Assembly (NCBI RefSeq): GCF_011764485.1
Contig: NZ_AP022848.1
Coordinates: 2,756,001-2,820,000, forward strand
DNA length: 64,000 nucleotides
Reading direction: 5' to 3'
Origin: Bosea sp. ANAM02
GTDB lineage: Bacteria; Pseudomonadota; Alphaproteobacteria; Rhizobiales; Beijerinckiaceae
Within the stretch, counting starts at the first letter, position 1. Each line of letters starts with the position of its first letter. The position numbers and the translations under genes are program-made. This document shows, in pieces, positions 87 through 29,349 of this stretch. The notes beneath the pieces are model-generated. The model saw nothing but the letters and a program-made list of their open reading frames with translations. It did not search any database and was not told the DNA's origin.

Positions 87-114
87 TTGACGAGAACAAA
101 AAGTGAACTAAACT
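87..114 (+). promoter_or_regulatory. Sigma-70-type promoter of the small membrane protein and possibly dnaE
   Basis: A -35 hexamer TTGACG (87-92) and a -10 hexamer TAAACT (109-114) are separated by 16 bases, with the LexA box filling the spacer. A start near 120 would leave a short leader before the AGGAGG at 132-137. The hexamers are read by eye. The coincidence of promoter, operator, ribosome site and start codon is the main support. Confidence 0.55.
94..108 (+). promoter_or_regulatory. LexA (SOS) box, GAAC-N7-GAAC
   Basis: GAAC (94-97), seven bases, then GAAC (105-108) reads GTTC-N7-GTTC on the other strand, the known alphaproteobacterial LexA consensus. It lies between the -35 and -10 hexamers, where bound LexA would block polymerase. 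A further GAAC at 115-118 has a six-base gap and does not fit. The same motif lies in the lexA promoter at 29330-29344. Confidence 0.7.
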
Positions 115-142
115 GAACCTATCGCGAACACAGGAGGTTTTC

Positions 143-253
143 ATGACTGCAGCGCGTAAATTCGCCGCCGGGCTCGCCGAGATCGCCTCGCTCGGAGTCT
201 TCCTCGGCATGATCTGGCTCTGGGCTGCCATCCTCTCCGGCCCGCATGTCTGA
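143..253 (+). CDS. 36-residue single-pass membrane protein, probably SOS-induced
   Basis: This small gene reads from ATG at 143 to TGA at 251-253. A near-perfect ribosome site AGGAGG (132-137) lies five bases upstream. The protein begins MTAARKF, has a hydrophobic stretch from about residue 14 to 31 rich in Leu, Ile and Trp, and ends SGPHV, so a single membrane helix with a short basic N-terminus is expected. The promoter upstream holds a LexA box. No domain is recognised. By size, topology and control it resembles SidA of Caulobacter, a 29-residue SOS-induced inner-membrane division inhibitor, but no sequence similarity is claimed. Existence of the gene is well supported; its role is inference. 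Confidence 0.7.
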   Translation: MTAARKFAAGLAEIASLGVFLGMIWLWAAILSGPHV

Positions 254-368: not shown

Positions 369-3300
369 ATGAGCAGGGAAACTGGCGAGGCGCGCGTTCT
401 CCAGGAGATCGGCTTCGTCCACCTGCATGTCCATTCGAGCTATTCGCTGCTCGAAGGCGCGATGACAATCGCGACGCTCGCCAAGATGGCCGCCGCCGAC
501 GGCCAGCCGGCATTGGCGCTGACCGATACCGACAATCTCTTCGGCGGCCTCGAATTCTCCGAGAAGCTCGCGGGCTCGGGCCTGCAGCCGATCGTCGGCG
601 TGCAGCTCTCCGTCGATTTCGCCGATGAGGGCGAGGGCAGTCGCAAGCCGGCACAGCTCCAGCGTCTGCCGCATATCGTGCTGCTCGCCATGGACGAGGG
701 TGGCTACGGCAATTTGATGAAGCTCGTCAGCGAGGCAGCTTTGGCCACGGGCGGGTCCGGCCAGCCGGTCACCACGATCGAGCGCCTCGCCGCCTTTAAC
801 GGCGGCCTGATCGCGCTGACCGGGGGGCAGGGCGGGCCGATCGACGTTGCGCTCCGCCTCGGCCAGCTCCCGCAGGCGCAGTCGCGCCTGGCGACGCTCG
901 CCGGCATCTATGGCGACCGGCTCTATGTCGAGATCCAGCGCCATGGCGGCGATGGCGAGGCGGCCCGCGAGGCTCATCTCCTGCGCCTCGCCTATGATGC
1001 CGATCTGCCGATCGTCGCCACCAACGAGCCCTTCTTCGCCAAGCCCGCCGATTTCGACGCGCATGACGCGCTGCTGGCGGTGGCGGAAGGGCGCCTCGTT
1101 TCGGATGGCACGCGCCGCCGCGTCTCGCCCGAGCATTATTTCGCCTCGCGCGCCGAGATGAAGAAGCGCTTCGCCGATCTGCCGGAGGCGCTGGCGAACA
1201 CCGTCGAGATCGCAATGCGCTGCCACTGGCGCGTCTCGACCCGCAAGCCGATCCTGCCCCGCTTCGGCGAGGAGGGGCGCGATGAGGCGGACGAGCTTCA
1301 GGAGCAGGCCCGCGCCGGCCTTGCCGCGCGCTTGGCCAAGCATGGCCCGGCCGAAGGTTTCAGCGTCGAGGATTACGAGAAGCGGCTCGAATTCGAGCTC
1401 TCGATCATCACGCGGATGAAGTTCCCGGGCTACTTCCTGATCGTTTCGGACTTCATCAAATGGGCAAAGAACCACGACATTCCGGTCGGGCCGGGCCGCG
1501 GCTCGGGCGCGGGCTCGCTGGTCGCCTATGCGCTGACCATCACCGACGTCGATCCGCTGCGCTTCGGCCTGCTCTTCGAGCGCTTCCTAAACCCTGACCG
1601 CGTCTCGATGCCCGATTTCGACATCGACTTCTGCCAGAACCGGCGTGAAGAGGTGATCGAGTACGTGAAGCACCATTACGGGCAGGAGCGCGTCGCCCAG
1701 ATCATCACCTTCGGCACGCTGCTCGCGCGCGGCGTGCTGCGCGATGTCGGCCGCGTGCTCGAAATGCCCTATGGCCAGGTCGACAAGCTGACCAAGCTCG
1801 TGCCGCAGAACCCGGCCAAGCCGATCTCGCTGAAGGATGCGATCGAGGGCGAGCCCAAGCTGCAGCAGGCCGCCGAGGAGGAGCCGATCGTCGCGCGCCT
1901 GCTTGAAATCGGCCAGAAGCTGGAAGGCCTTCACCGCCATGCTTCGACCCACGCCGCAGGCGTGGTGATCGGCGACCGGCCGCTCGAGCAGCTCGTCGCG
2001 CTCTCGGTCGATCCGCGCACCGGCATGCGCGTCACCCAGTTCAACATGAAATGGGTCGAGCAGGCCGGCCTCGTGAAGTTCGACTTCCTCGGCCTGAAGA
2101 CGCTGACCACGCTCACGACCGCGGTGAAGCTCATCGCCCAGCGCGACATCCATATCGATCTCGCGCAACTGCCCTTCGACGACCCGACCACCTACGCCAT
2201 GCTGGCACGCGGCGAGACGGTCGGCGTGTTCCAGGTGGAATCGGTCGGCATGCGCAAGGCGCTGGTCGAGATGAAGGCCGATCGGATCGAGGACCTGATC
2301 GCGCTGGTCGCGCTCTACCGGCCGGGCCCGATGGACAACATCCCGACCTATTGCCGCCGCAAGCTCGGTCTGGAGGACCCGACCTATCTCCATCCCGGCA
2401 TGGAGCCCTATCTGCGCGAGACCCACGGCATCATCGTCTACCAGGAACAGGTGATGCAGGTGGCGCAGGCGCTCTCGGGCTATTCGCTCGGCGAAGCGGA
2501 CCTGCTGCGCCGCGCCATGGGCAAGAAGATCAAGGCGGAGATGGACGCCCAGCGCGACCGCTTCGTGAAGGGTGCGGTGGATGGCGGCATCAAGAAGGAC
2601 ATCGCCTCCGAGATCTTCGACCTGCTGGCGAAGTTCGCCGATTACGGCTTCAACAAGAGCCACGCGGCGGCCTATGCCATCGTCGCCTTCCAGACCGCCT
2701 ATCTGAAGGCGAACTTTCCCGTAGAGTTCCTGGCGGCGTCGATGACGCTCGACATGGGCAATACAGACAAGCTCTCGGAGTTCCGCCGCGATGCCGAGCG
2801 GCTCGGCATCAAGGTCGAGCGGCCGGCGATCAACCAGTCCGGCGTCGAGTTCGACGTGGCCGACGGCAAGATTTTCTACGCACTCGGCGCCATCAAGGGC
2901 GTCGGGCGGGCGGCGGTGGAATCGCTGGTGGCGGCGCGGCAAGCCGCCGGCCCGTTCCGCGACCTCGCCGATCTCGCGCGGCGCATCGACACCCGGCTCG
3001 TCAATCGCCGCACGCTGGAGGCGCTGATCGCGGCCGGCGCGCTCGACGAGCTGGAGGCGGATCGCGCCCGCGCGGTCGCGGCGCTCGACGGCATGCTCGC
3101 GCTTTCCAACCGCACCCGCGACGAGGCGGCGGCCGGCCAGTTCGACCTGCTCGGCGGCGGCGTGGTGCAGGAGGCCTTCCGCATCCCGCAGGTCGAGCCC
3201 TGGGCCCCGGCCGAGAAGCTCAAGCGCGAGCACGAGGCGGTCGGATTCTTCCTCTCCGGCCACCCGCTCGACGATTACGAGCATGTGCTGAAGCGGCTGC

Positions 3301-3842
3301 GCGTGCAGCGCTATGCCGATTTCGCCCAGACCGTGCGCGCCAACGGCACCGGGGTCGGCAAGGTCGCGGTTTCCGTCATCGACAAGTCGGAGCGGCGCAC
3401 CAAGTCCGGCTCCAAGATGGGCATCGTCAACCTGTCGGACCCGAGCGGCCAGTTCGAGGCCGTGCTGTTCTCGGAAGGGCTGATGAAGCTGCGCGACCTG
3501 CTCGAGCCGGGCAGGGCGCTGGTACTGCGTCTCTCGGCGGTGCTCGACGGCGAAGAGGTGCGACCGCGCATCGAGGATGCCGAGGAACTCGATGGGCTCG
3601 CGGCGCGCCAGAAGCAGGATCTCGTCGTCTATCTCCGCGACGACAAGGCGGTGGCCTCGGTCGCCGAGCGCATCCGCCCGCGCGAGGCGATGCGCGCCGA
3701 GGGCAAGGTCTCGATCATCATGATCATCGACGATGGCGCGCAGGAGGTCGAGATCGAACTGCCCGGCAAATTCCCGGTCAACCAGCAGATCGCCAATGCC
3801 GTGCGGGCCGCGCCCGGCGTGGTCGATGTCCGGCTGCAATAG
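369..3842 (+). CDS. dnaE: DNA polymerase III subunit alpha
   Basis: Catalytic subunit of the replicative polymerase. At 1157 residues it matches the E. coli protein (1160). An N-terminal PHP domain starts with HLHVHS at 18-23. The palm carries PGRGSGAG and the PDFDIDF motif with D418 and D420, and a third acidic residue D572 lies in KFDFLGL, the usual catalytic triad. Helix-hairpin-helix and OB-fold regions follow in the last 400 residues. ATG at 369 is preceded by AGGAG (358-362) six bases away. This is the housekeeping DnaE1, not the ImuABC-linked DnaE2, because no imuA or imuB lies nearby and the full length is present. It could be read in part from the LexA-box promoter 250 bases upstream, as no terminator is visible between. 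Confidence 0.97.
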   Translation: MSRETGEARVLQEIGFVHLHVHSSYSLLEGAMTIATLAKMAAADGQPALALTDTDNLFGGLEFSEKLAGSGLQPIVGVQLSVDFADEGEGSRKPAQLQRLPHIVLLAMDEGGYGNLMKLVSEAALATGGSGQPVTTIERLAAFNGGLIALTGGQGGPIDVALRLGQLPQAQSRLATLAGIYGDRLYVEIQRHGGDGEAAREAHLLRLAYDADLPIVATNEPFFAKPADFDAHDALLAVAEGRLVSDGTRRRVSPEHYFASRAEMKKRFADLPEALANTVEIAMRCHWRVSTRKPILPRFGEEGRDEADELQEQARAGLAARLAKHGPAEGFSVEDYEKRLEFELSIITRMKFPGYFLIVSDFIKWAKNHDIPVGPGRGSGAGSLVAYALTITDVDPLRFGLLFERFLNPDRVSMPDFDIDFCQNRREEVIEYVKHHYGQERVAQIITFGTLLARGVLRDVGRVLEMPYGQVDKLTKLVPQNPAKPISLKDAIEGEPKLQQAAEEEPIVARLLEIGQKLEGLHRHASTHAAGVVIGDRPLEQLVALSVDPRTGMRVTQFNMKWVEQAGLVKFDFLGLKTLTTLTTAVKLIAQRDIHIDLAQLPFDDPTTYAMLARGETVGVFQVESVGMRKALVEMKADRIEDLIALVALYRPGPMDNIPTYCRRKLGLEDPTYLHPGMEPYLRETHGIIVYQEQVMQVAQALSGYSLGEADLLRRAMGKKIKAEMDAQRDRFVKGAVDGGIKKDIASEIFDLLAKFADYGFNKSHAAAYAIVAFQTAYLKANFPVEFLAASMTLDMGNTDKLSEFRRDAERLGIKVERPAINQSGVEFDVADGKIFYALGAIKGVGRAAVESLVAARQAAGPFRDLADLARRIDTRLVNRRTLEALIAAGALDELEADRARAVAALDGMLALSNRTRDEAAAGQFDLLGGGVVQEAFRIPQVEPWAPAEKLKREHEAVGFFLSGHPLDDYEHVLKRLRVQRYADFAQTVRANGTGVGKVAVSVIDKSERRTKSGSKMGIVNLSDPSGQFEAVLFSEGLMKLRDLLEPGRALVLRLSAVLDGEEVRPRIEDAEELDGLAARQKQDLVVYLRDDKAVASVAERIRPREAMRAEGKVSIIMIIDDGAQEVEIELPGKFPVNQQIANAVRAAPGVVDVRLQ

Positions 3843-3854
3843 CTATCCAGATTA

Positions 3855-4022
3855 GGCGCGGGGAACCCTCTCCCATAGGGAGAGGGCAGGGTGAGGGGTA
3901 GGCCGCTCACCGCTTTTGCTGTGAGGTGGTCGCTGTGCAGCCGTGGGGTTGGCGCCTCACTGGCCGGGGGGCCTACACCTCACCCCTGCCCCTCTCCTTA
4001 CAGGAGAGGGGTTCCCCGCGCC
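3855..4022. repeat. Inverted pair of CCCTCTCC-type palindromic repeats
   Basis: The left arm (about 3855-3902) and right arm (about 3970-4022) are near-perfect reverse complements of roughly 50 bases. Each has its own small hairpin built from CCTCTCC and GGAGAGG. About 67 bases lie between the arms. This GGCGCGGGGAACCCTCTCC type is a dispersed intergenic repeat in many rhizobial genomes. It lies between dnaE and pncA and may form a strong hairpin in the dnaE transcript. Confidence 0.7.
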
Positions 4023-26286: not shown

Positions 26287-28566
26287 ATGCAGCCGGCGCC
26301 GCCGGGGCAGGGGCAGGAACGAGGCCGGCGCGGCGCGCGCGCCGATGCACAGCCGGCGTGGCTCGGTGCTTCGGTGCCGCTGACGGCGGGCCTGCGTCCC
26401 TGGCTCCGACAGCTTCGGCTCCGTCTGCAGCAGGGATTTGCGCTGGAGGTCGAGCGCCGCCGGCCCTTCCTCTGGCTGCCCTTCGCAATGGGCGTCGGCA
26501 TCCTGCTCTACTTTGCCGCCGATCGTGAGCCGGCATTATGGGCCCCGCTTCTGGGTCTGGCTGTGAGCAGTGCGGCGGCCTTCGCTCTGCGCTTTCGCCC
26601 CGTCGCGTCCATGGCCTGCCTCGCGGCGGCCGCTGCCTTCGCGGGCTTCGCCGCCGGGGTCTGGCGCACGGCCGATATCGCGGCACCGATGCTGGAGCGG
26701 CCGCGCATCGGCAAGCTCTCGGGCTTCGTCGAGAGCGTCGAAGTCCGCGACAAGGGCGCACGGCTCGTCGTGCTCGTCACCGATCTCGCCAATGTCCCCG
26801 CCGATTCCAGGCCGAAGCGCGTCCGCGTCAATATCCGGCAGGGCTCGGTGAATCCGGGAGACCATATCGTCGCGACCGCGCGTCTGCTGCCACCGCCCGG
26901 GCCAGCGCGGGCCGGCGGCTACGATTTCGGACGCGATGCCTTCTTCCGCGGGATCGGCGCCGTCGGCAGCGTCTCCGGCAAGATCGCATTGGCGCCGGCG
27001 CCCTTTCCGATGCCGATGCGTCTCGCCATCGACGTGACGATCGACCGCGCCCGCAATGCGCTGACCAGGCGCATCGCCGAGGTCGGAGGCGGGCAGGGCG
27101 GGGCGGTTGCCGCCGCGCTCGTCACCGGCAAGCGCGGCCTGATCACGGAAGCCACGAACAACGACCTGCGCGCCGCCGGCATCTACCACATCGTCTCGAT
27201 CTCGGGCCTGCACATGGTGCTGGCGGCCGGGACCATCTTCTGGCTGGTCCGCGCGCTGCTGGCCTTGTCGCAGACGGTGGCGCTGCACTGGCCGGTCAAG
27301 AAGCTCGCGGCGGTCGCGGCCATGATCGGCGCAACCGCCTATTGCATCTTTTCCGGCAGCGATGTCGCGACCGAGCGCTCGCTGATCATGACGCTGGTCA
27401 TGCTCGGGGCGATTCTGGTCGATCGTGCGGCGCTGAGCATGCGCAATCTCGCGCTCGCCGCCATGATCGTGCTGCTGCGCGAGCCGGAGGCGCTGCTGGG
27501 GCCGAGCTTCCAGATGTCCTTCGGCGCGGTCGCGGCGCTGATCGCCTTCGCCGAGCGCTGGGAAAGGAGAGATCGCAGCGAGCCGCCGCCCGCGTTGCCG
27601 TGGCCGCTCGGATCGATCTGGATGGCGGCGCTCGGCATCCTCGTCACCACCATGCTGGCGACCGCCGCGACCGCGCCTTTCGGCGCCTATCATTTCCAGA
27701 CCTTCAATCCCTTCGGCCTGCTCGGCAACGCCATGGCGCTGCCCTTCGTCTCGCTTTTCGTGATGCCGGCGGCGGTATTCGGCGTGCTCGCCTATCCGTT
27801 CGGACTGGACTGGCCGGCCTGGGCCCTGATGGGGTTGGCTTCCGACGTGGTGCTCAAGGTCGCGCATTGGGTCGCGTCCATCGATCACTCCACCGTGACG
27901 GTCGCGGCCTTCGGCCCCGCGGTGCTGGCGTGCTTCGCGATGGCGTTACTGTGGCTTGCGCTCTGGACGACGGCCTGGCGATGGCTGGCGGCTGTGCCGC
28001 TGGTCTTCGGCGTCGCCATCGCCGGCAAGCCGGAACGGCCGGAAATCCTGATCGAGCGCGACGGCTCGGGTCTGGCCGTGCGCGGCGCCGACGGGCGCCT
28101 CGCCATCGCCGGAAAGCCCAGCCGCTTCGTTCTGCAGCAATGGCTCGCGGCCGATGGCGACAGCCGCTCACCCGACGATCCGACATTGCGCGCCGGCATC
28201 GCCTGCGATCGTCTGGCTTGCGTCGCGCAGACGGCCGACAAGCGCACGATTTCCTATACGCGCGAGCGCCTCGCCATCATCGAGGACTGCCTACGGGCCG
28301 ATCTCGTCGTCACCGCGATCCCCTGGAGCGGGACCTGCAAGGCCAGGCTGATCGAGCGGATGGCGCTTACGCGCGACGGCGCAACCTCGCTCTATCGCAA
28401 GGCATCGGGGTGGAGCAGCCGAACCTCGGAGCCGAGCGATGCCGAGCGCCCATGGAGCCGCCGGCGCGAAGCTCGTCCGGCGGCGTCGGCCAACCAACCC
28501 ACCGCCGCACGCTCGGCATCGTCGGCCGACAGCGACCCCGCCCCCGACACGGAACGCCTTCAGTAA
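26287..28566 (+). CDS. comEC: ComEC/Rec2-family competence protein without a visible nuclease domain
   Basis: Inner-membrane channel family for single-stranded DNA uptake. It has 759 residues. A DUF4131-type N-terminal region (about 60-230) with three membrane segments is followed by the Competence domain (about 265-550), which contains [16 protein letters not shown] and about eight more membrane helices. The C-terminal ~200 residues are soluble but show no HxHxD metallo-beta-lactamase motif, so the usual nuclease domain seems lost or highly degenerate. ATG at 26287 has GGGAGG six bases upstream. The 3' end overlaps the convergent lexA by seven bases. Function in transformation is uncertain. 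Confidence 0.9.
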
Positions 28567-29273
28567 CGCCGCATCAGGTTGACGAGGCGGCCCTGGATCT
28601 TGACCCGGTCGGGCCCAAGCACGCGGGTCTCATAGGCGGGGTTCGCCGCCTCAAGCGCAATGGAGGAGCCGCGCTTGCGCAGGCGCTTCAGCGTCGCCTC
28701 TTCGTCGTCGATCAGGGCCACGACGATATCGCCGGTATTGGCGGTGTCCTGCCGGCGGATGACGACCGTGTCGCCGTCGAGGATGCCGGCCTCAACCATC
28801 GAATCGCCCCGCACTTCCAGCGCGTAATGCTCGCCGGAGCCGAGCATGTCCGGCGGCAGCGAGACCGTGTGGCTGCGGCTCTGGATCGCCGAGATCGGCG
28901 TGCCCGCCGCGATCCGGCCCATGACGGGGATGGCGATGGCATGCCGGCTGTCGTCCTCGACCGCCGCGGGCCGGGGCTTGGCGACGCTCGGCTGCGCGCC
29001 CAGGCCGCCCTGAACGACGGCCGGGTTGAAGCGCGGGCGCGGCTGCGGGGCGCCGAGCCCGTCCGGCATCTTGATGACCTCGAGCGCGCGCGCCCGGTTC
29101 GGCAGACGGCGGATGAAGCCGCGCTCCTCCAGCGCCATGATCAAGCGGTGGATGCCGGATTTCGAGCGCAGGTCGAGCGCGTCCTTCATCTCGTCGAAGG
29201 AGGGGGGTACGCCACTTTCGCGCAAGCGTTCCTGGATGAAGCGCAGGAGTTCGTGTTGCTTGCGTGTCAGCAT
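28560..29273 (-). CDS. lexA: LexA repressor (SOS regulator)
   Basis: Represses DNA-damage genes until RecA-stimulated self-cleavage. It has 237 residues. The N-terminal winged helix starts [17 protein letters not shown], the cleavage site is A123-G124 (in RIAAGTP), and the Ser/Lys dyad is S158 (in GDSMVEAG) and K196 (in ATLKRLRK). The hinge is longer than in E. coli (202 residues), as is usual in alphaproteobacteria. A LexA box lies inside its promoter at 29330-29344, so autoregulation is expected. It lies downstream of moeA and converges on comEC. Confidence 0.97.
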
Positions 29274-29320
29274 GGTCGCCGCCAGCCCCTCAAAGCGCAG
29301 ATTCGAAACAAAGCACGAAC

Positions 29321-29349
29321 ACCATACGCGTTCTGCTTGTGTTCCGCAA
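29321..29349 (-). promoter_or_regulatory. lexA promoter with LexA box in the spacer
   Basis: On the minus strand a -35 TTGCGG (29349-29344) and a -10 TATGGT (29326-29321) are separated by 17 bases, and the LexA box overlaps the spacer. The layout is the same as at 87-114. The start would be near 29314, about 40 bases before the lexA ATG. Confidence 0.55.
29330..29344 (-). promoter_or_regulatory. LexA (SOS) box, GTTC-N7-GTTC
   Basis: GTTC (29330-29333), seven bases, GTTC (29341-29344) on the plus strand is an exact match to the alphaproteobacterial LexA consensus. A second, imperfect AAAC-N7-GAAC lies at 29306-29320 and may be an extra site. It is placed 57 bases before the lexA start. Confidence 0.85.

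Follow-up and report, generated by a model that had tools for sequence, protein, structure and literature searches.

To our knowledge, the control of cell division after DNA damage in Alphaproteobacteria has been worked out mainly in Caulobacter. Two small division inhibitors of C. crescentus are described in PMC4211646: SidA, a protein of 29 residues that is controlled by LexA and interacts with FtsW, and DidA, a protein of 71 residues that is SOS-independent, is induced by DriD and binds FtsN. In the C. crescentus genome, sidA is listed as CCNA_02004 (PMC10769358) and dnaE as CC1926 (PMC1839093). Furthermore, a 2026 study proposes FtsW as the common target of YneA from Bacillus subtilis, SosA from Staphylococcus aureus and ChiZ from Mycobacterium tuberculosis, and models SidA with low confidence on helix 7 of FtsW, on the side opposite to that used by these three proteins (PMC13396833). 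A different type of peptide is represented by DinQ, which is described as an SOS-regulated toxic peptide with a single transmembrane segment, opposed by antisense RNAs (PMC3567139).

Here, we analysed a 64-kb stretch of Bosea DNA (the window), near the start of which a 36-codon open reading frame (ORF) precedes dnaE. We consider it likely that this ORF is the SidA of its lineage, that is, a LexA-repressed and damage-induced peptide that would halt septation via FtsW.

Promoter and LexA boxes

The initial annotation had described a LexA box between a -35 and a -10 element, followed by AGGAGG and an ORF of 36 residues, and direct reading of the sequence gave the same arrangement (Table 1). The spacer between TTGACG and TAAACT comprises 16 bases and holds LexA box 1. 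The promoter at 87-114 is the sole sigma-70 match on both strands of positions 1-420 (shuffle mean of 0.0). LexA box 2 was absent from the initial annotation.

Table 1. Features of the Bosea window discussed in the text.
Feature	Position	Strand	Basis or remark
-35 element TTGACG	87-92	+	Direct reading and sigma-70 scan
LexA box 1 GAACAAAAAGTGAAC	94-108	+	GAAC-N7-GAAC, inside the promoter spacer
-10 element TAAACT	109-114	+	Direct reading and sigma-70 scan
LexA box 2 GAACCTATCGCGAAC	115-129	+	Offset by 21 bases downstream of box 1; covers the expected start site
Ribosome-binding site AGGAGG	132-137	+	Direct reading
36-residue single-helix SidA-like peptide MTAARKFAAGLAEIASLGVFLGMIWLWAAILSGPHV	143-253	+	Conservation, coding selection, model
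dnaE, replicative DNA polymerase III alpha subunit	369-3842	+	Family searches
lexA (matched stretch)	28566-29273	-	TIGR00498, 179.7 bits, above cut-off; G000:C1:2784566-2785273
LexA box GAACACAAGCAGAAC before lexA	29330-29344	-	Third GAAC-N7-GAAC of the window

GAAC-N7-GAAC occurs three times in the window against an expectation of 1.1, and at least as many copies were obtained in 12 of 100 shuffles. The count alone is therefore no proof, and it is the placement and the conservation of the boxes that carry weight. Among 39 genomes of the genus, 16 have an exact box 1 and 35 a box 1 with at most one mismatch, and 23 have an exact box 2; both boxes are exact in 13 genomes and at least one of them in 26. 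In the -35 element, each of the five TTGAC letters is conserved in 35 or more of the 39. Because GAACAA served as the anchor of the alignment, the conservation of the first half of box 1 is built in; that of its second half, of box 2 and of TTGAC does not depend on this anchor.

The same type of box is found at the genes of the SOS regulators themselves. The box before lexA is located about 50 bases ahead of the lexA ATG, and upstream of recA in the Bosea genome we found GAACAAAAAAAGAAC, which differs from box 1 in 2 of 15 letters. The lexA product is likely the repressor of the promoter at 87-114. Together with its own box, lexA (28566-29344) is situated about 25 kb downstream of dnaE, within the same window. 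Judged from the sequence, the small ORF has a predicted LexA-controlled promoter as expected for a sidA gene, with two boxes of the lexA/recA type that are conserved in the genus.

The 36-codon ORF as a gene

The ORF starts with an ATG at 143 and stops at 251-253. The peptide is present in all 37 same-genus genomes of our first search and in two further members of the genus (39 of 39), and it was matched in 1 of the 24 non-genus genomes of that search. The 39 distinct nucleotide sequences of the ORF encode 28 distinct peptides, and the entropy at the three codon positions is 0.68, 0.35 and 1.12, respectively, with the third position varying most. When the 35 sequences of equal length (36 codons) were compared, dN was lower than dS in all 563 usable pairs (595 pairs in total, which are not independent), with a median dN/dS of 0.24. 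The ORF is a real gene under purifying selection. Residues R5, G10, E13, L17, F20, M23, W27, A28 and A29 are invariant in 17 peptides of the genus.

The best 17-residue hydropathy of the peptide is 2.11, and an AlphaFold2 model calculated from the single sequence consists of one helix covering residues 3-32, with a mean pLDDT of 91.8. With 36 residues and a predicted membrane location, the product corresponds to the single-helix protein of about 30 residues that SidA represents. Since the positive charges of Arg5 and Lys6 are situated near the N-terminus, the peptide is probably oriented with this end inside. No matching model was found for it in Pfam and NCBIfam up to an E-value of 1.

dnaE and the gene neighbourhood

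The ATG of dnaE is located at 369, 115 bases beyond the stop codon of the peptide, and a scan of positions 1-420 revealed no terminator-like site between the two ORFs. The encoded protein scored 1440.5 bits with the NCBIfam model PRK05673 (cut-off of 1002) and 616.5 bits with the error-prone subfamily PRK05672 (cut-off of 939). Since it passed the former and failed the latter, the downstream gene encodes the replicative alpha subunit and is not dnaE2. The small gene of the window is located directly before dnaE, as sidA presumably is in C. crescentus. On the upstream side, a proline-tRNA ligase and an ABC-transporter pair, lolC/E and lolD, were recognised by eye from the translations. Directly after dnaE, at about 3860-4022, an inverted pair of REP-like repeats rich in CCCTCTCC was also seen by eye.

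The Bosea genome encodes a second DnaE-like protein (locus L071, G000:C2:689144-692083; 916 bits to polc), close to the end of a 692-kb contig, and besides this one three further polymerase alpha-like genes. No exact LexA box was found within 300 bases before the open frame of these four other dnaE-like genes, and the 300 bases upstream of L071 contain neither a LexA box nor a SidA-like ORF.

Distribution in the order and the class

A profile built from the 17 genus peptides (A1) was searched, blind to position, against 397 whole genomes of the order. Most matches up to an E-value of 1 were noise. At 23 of the 26 non-genus loci, dnaE follows on the same strand at a distance of up to 1.5 kb, and at 3 it does not; at L052 and L067 dnaE is some 620-680 bases away, and L052 is a repeat of the genome already matched in the first genus search. 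An exact LexA-type box is found near the ORF in 22 of the 23 dnaE-linked loci, the exception being L067. This is the outcome of a check suggested by the initial annotation, namely a search for the peptide and its box before dnaE in other Hyphomicrobiales, the order named by that annotation. A lack of conservation of the ORF or the box in related genomes, which the same annotation had named as an argument against its reading, is contradicted by their conservation in the genus and in part of the order.

Four loci with a peptide or profile match and no dnaE (L039, L054, L068 and L069) were set aside. Two of these, L039 (G006) and L068 (G387), contain similar small membrane ORFs; dnaE was not matched at either locus, and the stretch checked lacked an exact LexA box. 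They are possibly paralogues under other control.

A second, wider profile of 22 rows (A2) was searched in 385 whole genomes of the class. Outside the order, none of its matches was convincing; the best (E-value of 0.00127) fell in a frame of 263 residues. Therefore, a survey anchored on dnaE was used instead. We could place this gene in all 76 order genomes and in 122 of the 124 class genomes, and evaluated as much as 700 bases ahead of it in 69 and 70 of these genomes, respectively. From the order set, G039, G090, G095, G097 and G124 were left out, and G000 and G078 were counted with the class. As the 70 class genomes, which include the one of Bosea itself, were picked on match rank and genome size, the class rates below do not describe a random sample.

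When small ORFs on both strands before dnaE were compared with A2, the best match with an E-value below 0.05 was encoded on the same strand as dnaE in all 31 loci, and the best minus-strand match had an E-value of 3.6. Some of the loci (G000, G055 and G113) had themselves contributed rows to A2. A second test required an exact GAAC-N7-GAAC followed, 15-110 bases further on, by an ORF of 20-60 residues with a strongly hydrophobic stretch. This combination precedes dnaE in 32 of the 69 order genomes and in 14 of the 70 class genomes. No instance occurred on the opposite strand in either set, nor in 20 dinucleotide-preserving shuffles of each set. By either test (A2, or box and ORF with a slightly looser hydropathy limit), the gene is present in 37 of the 69 genomes from the order, covering 26 of 43 families, and in 15 of the 70 from the class, covering 12 of 67 families. 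No such gene was detected before dnaE by either test in 32 order and 55 class genomes. Some of these misses are technical; for example, the ORF of G101 begins more than 700 bases before dnaE. At L117, only 183 bases of upstream sequence were available.

In two families, the operators show a further feature. A box of the form GTTC-N7-GTTC, in the opposite orientation, is located 18 bases from the forward box in f36 (L055-L058, L063 and L065) and 31 bases from it in f20 (L046-L049, L052, L060 and L064), which suggests paired operators.

Relation to the Caulobacter ORFs

Five Caulobacterales genomes with dnaE were available, four of them named Caulobacter sp. (two metagenome-assembled) and one a Caulobacterales metagenome bin. 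All five contain a single-helix ORF of 29 codons, counted from an ATG, before dnaE; in the four Caulobacter sp. genomes longer in-frame starts (33 and 40) also exist. The exact LexA box is found at the ORF in all four Caulobacter sp., and the metagenome bin carries GAACAAAACCGGAAT, which by eye is one letter off. CCNA_02004 (sidA) and CC1926 (dnaE), numbers that stem from two annotations, presumably adjoin in C. crescentus. Because 29 codons equal the published length of SidA, and because of the LexA box and the place before dnaE, the Caulobacter sp. ORF is very probably SidA.

To compare these ORFs with the window, an order profile of 49 rows from the order of the window, without any Caulobacter rows, was run on 3,275 ORFs. 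It recognised the Caulobacterales ORFs L250-L254 with E-values of 7.5e-4, 0.024, 7.5e-4, 1.1e-3 and 1.7e-3, respectively, and the values were the same with 3,267 ORFs. For the four distinct Caulobacterales peptides, 0, 2, 0 and 0 of 2,000 shuffles reached the real score, and at L254 the best shuffle came within 0.2 bits of it. Matches of the same profile in other families of the class had E-values of 4.2e-5 (f56), 6e-4 (f55) and about 7e-4 (f61). Within the order, L181 matched the order profile, which had been built without it, at 1.3e-6. With the narrower A2 alone, the Caulobacterales ORFs gave E-values of 0.2-0.62, and an hhalign comparison between A2 and the Caulobacter set reported a probability of 20% and an E-value of 0.0011. 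The direct identity of the Bosea peptide to Caulobacter ORFs is 17% and 21%. Homology to the Caulobacter ORF upstream of dnaE is supported through intermediates only, in combination with the shared place and regulation.

The initial annotation had linked the small gene to SidA by size, topology and regulation. This link gains support from the conservation of the peptide and its LexA-type promoter in the genus, from the recurrence of the sequence box, peptide and dnaE in some of the order and class genomes, and from the LexA-boxed 29-codon ORF before dnaE in four Caulobacter sp. The Bosea peptide is most likely the positional orthologue of SidA, which is an FtsW inhibitor induced by the SOS response.

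Alternative explanations

TisB is an SOS-induced single-helix peptide of E. coli. The Bosea product shares a similar size, the single helix and the predicted SOS control with peptides of the TisB or DinQ type, and it might thus be a membrane-active peptide that lowers the membrane potential and slows growth without binding the divisome. However, DinQ has antisense RNAs, and a sigma-70 consensus scan of positions 1-420 detected no promoter on the minus strand. In addition, the place before dnaE is common to the Bosea and Caulobacter ORFs, and the order of residues is shared beyond a mere hydrophobic composition. We regard a purely membrane-active peptide as improbable.

A role in the expression of dnaE could be considered as well, in which translation of the ORF tunes dnaE during the SOS response and the peptide itself is inert. 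The place of the ORF upstream of dnaE on the same strand and the absence of a terminator-like site between the two in the window agree with such a leader. We regard it as quite improbable, given the purifying selection on the amino acids and the invariant positions of the 17 genus peptides. Moreover, the distance from the end of the ORF to the dnaE match varies between 19 and 590 bases among loci, so that there is no fixed coupling geometry. Finally, GAAC-N7-GAAC is expected about once per window, which would be compatible with a chance ORF accompanied by chance boxes. Coding selection (dN below dS in every usable pair), the presence of the peptide throughout the genus and the absence of the box and ORF combination on the opposite strand and in shuffles make this highly improbable, and it was rejected.

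Proposed mechanism and significance

For the preferred reading, a SidA-type division inhibitor, the following mechanism can be proposed. In the undamaged cell, LexA would occupy the two boxes over the promoter and the start site and keep the gene off. RecA bound to single-stranded DNA would then trigger self-cleavage of LexA and release the promoter, and with a good promoter and ribosome-binding site the 36-residue peptide would be made. It would enter the inner membrane as one helix and may keep the late divisome, FtsW with FtsI and FtsN, inactive, whereby septation would be delayed until repair. Induction by damage, membrane insertion, FtsW as the target and division arrest are the steps that we infer here.

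FtsW is present in the Bosea genome with a score of 328.4 bits, just below the cut-off of 337.5; 7 of 10 control genomes with a match also scored below it. Caulobacter numbering fits the published FtsW suppressor sites, as residues 145 and 246 of strain Root343 are F and A, respectively. In the Bosea genome, F145 is kept as F and A246 reads S.

A division inhibitor of the SidA kind is already known; what is of interest here is how widespread the family is and that it is linked to dnaE. In the literature searched, in which subscription papers are thinly covered and an earlier mention is possible, we found no report of SidA outside Caulobacter and none of a LexA-controlled small gene before dnaE. 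Within the same partial coverage, SidA is also unreported as a class-wide family or with a kept place before dnaE. Genes as small as 36 codons are easily overlooked. A SidA family that can be recognised and has a constant position would offer immediate candidates in many further alphaproteobacterial lineages, and its natural variation in sequence could serve to map the contact with FtsW; it also raises the question of why a division inhibitor is tied to dnaE. More tentatively, SidA might be no peculiarity of Caulobacter but an old alphaproteobacterial SOS microprotein that forms one transcription unit with dnaE, in which case one LexA promoter would both stop division and top up the replicative polymerase after damage. 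Under this more tentative view, overlooked and rapidly diverging orthologues of SidA would account for the SOS division inhibitor that is missing in much of the order.

Comparison with known systems

DidA of C. crescentus resembles the proposed role in being a small, damage-induced inhibitor of division with a single helix. The Bosea peptide was not identified with DidA, as it has 36 residues and LexA boxes. DinQ and TisB of E. coli are likewise SOS-induced single-helix peptides; DinQ differs in its antisense RNA control, whereas no minus-strand promoter-like site was found at the Bosea locus in the sigma-70 consensus scan of 1-420. YneA, SosA and ChiZ are similar as small membrane division inhibitors induced by damage, but they belong to other phyla and are likened here by description, not by sequence.

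The closest counterpart is SidA of C. crescentus (CCNA_02004), which blocks division upon overproduction and binds FtsW and FtsN. The Bosea peptide, known here from its sequence, differs from it in length (36 versus 29 residues), in its C-terminal G-P tail, in the tandem boxes of which the first is inside the promoter spacer, and in its low direct identity. In common with SidA, it is a very small single-helix protein with a LexA-type box, located before dnaE as read in four Caulobacter sp., and it shows profile similarity through intermediates.
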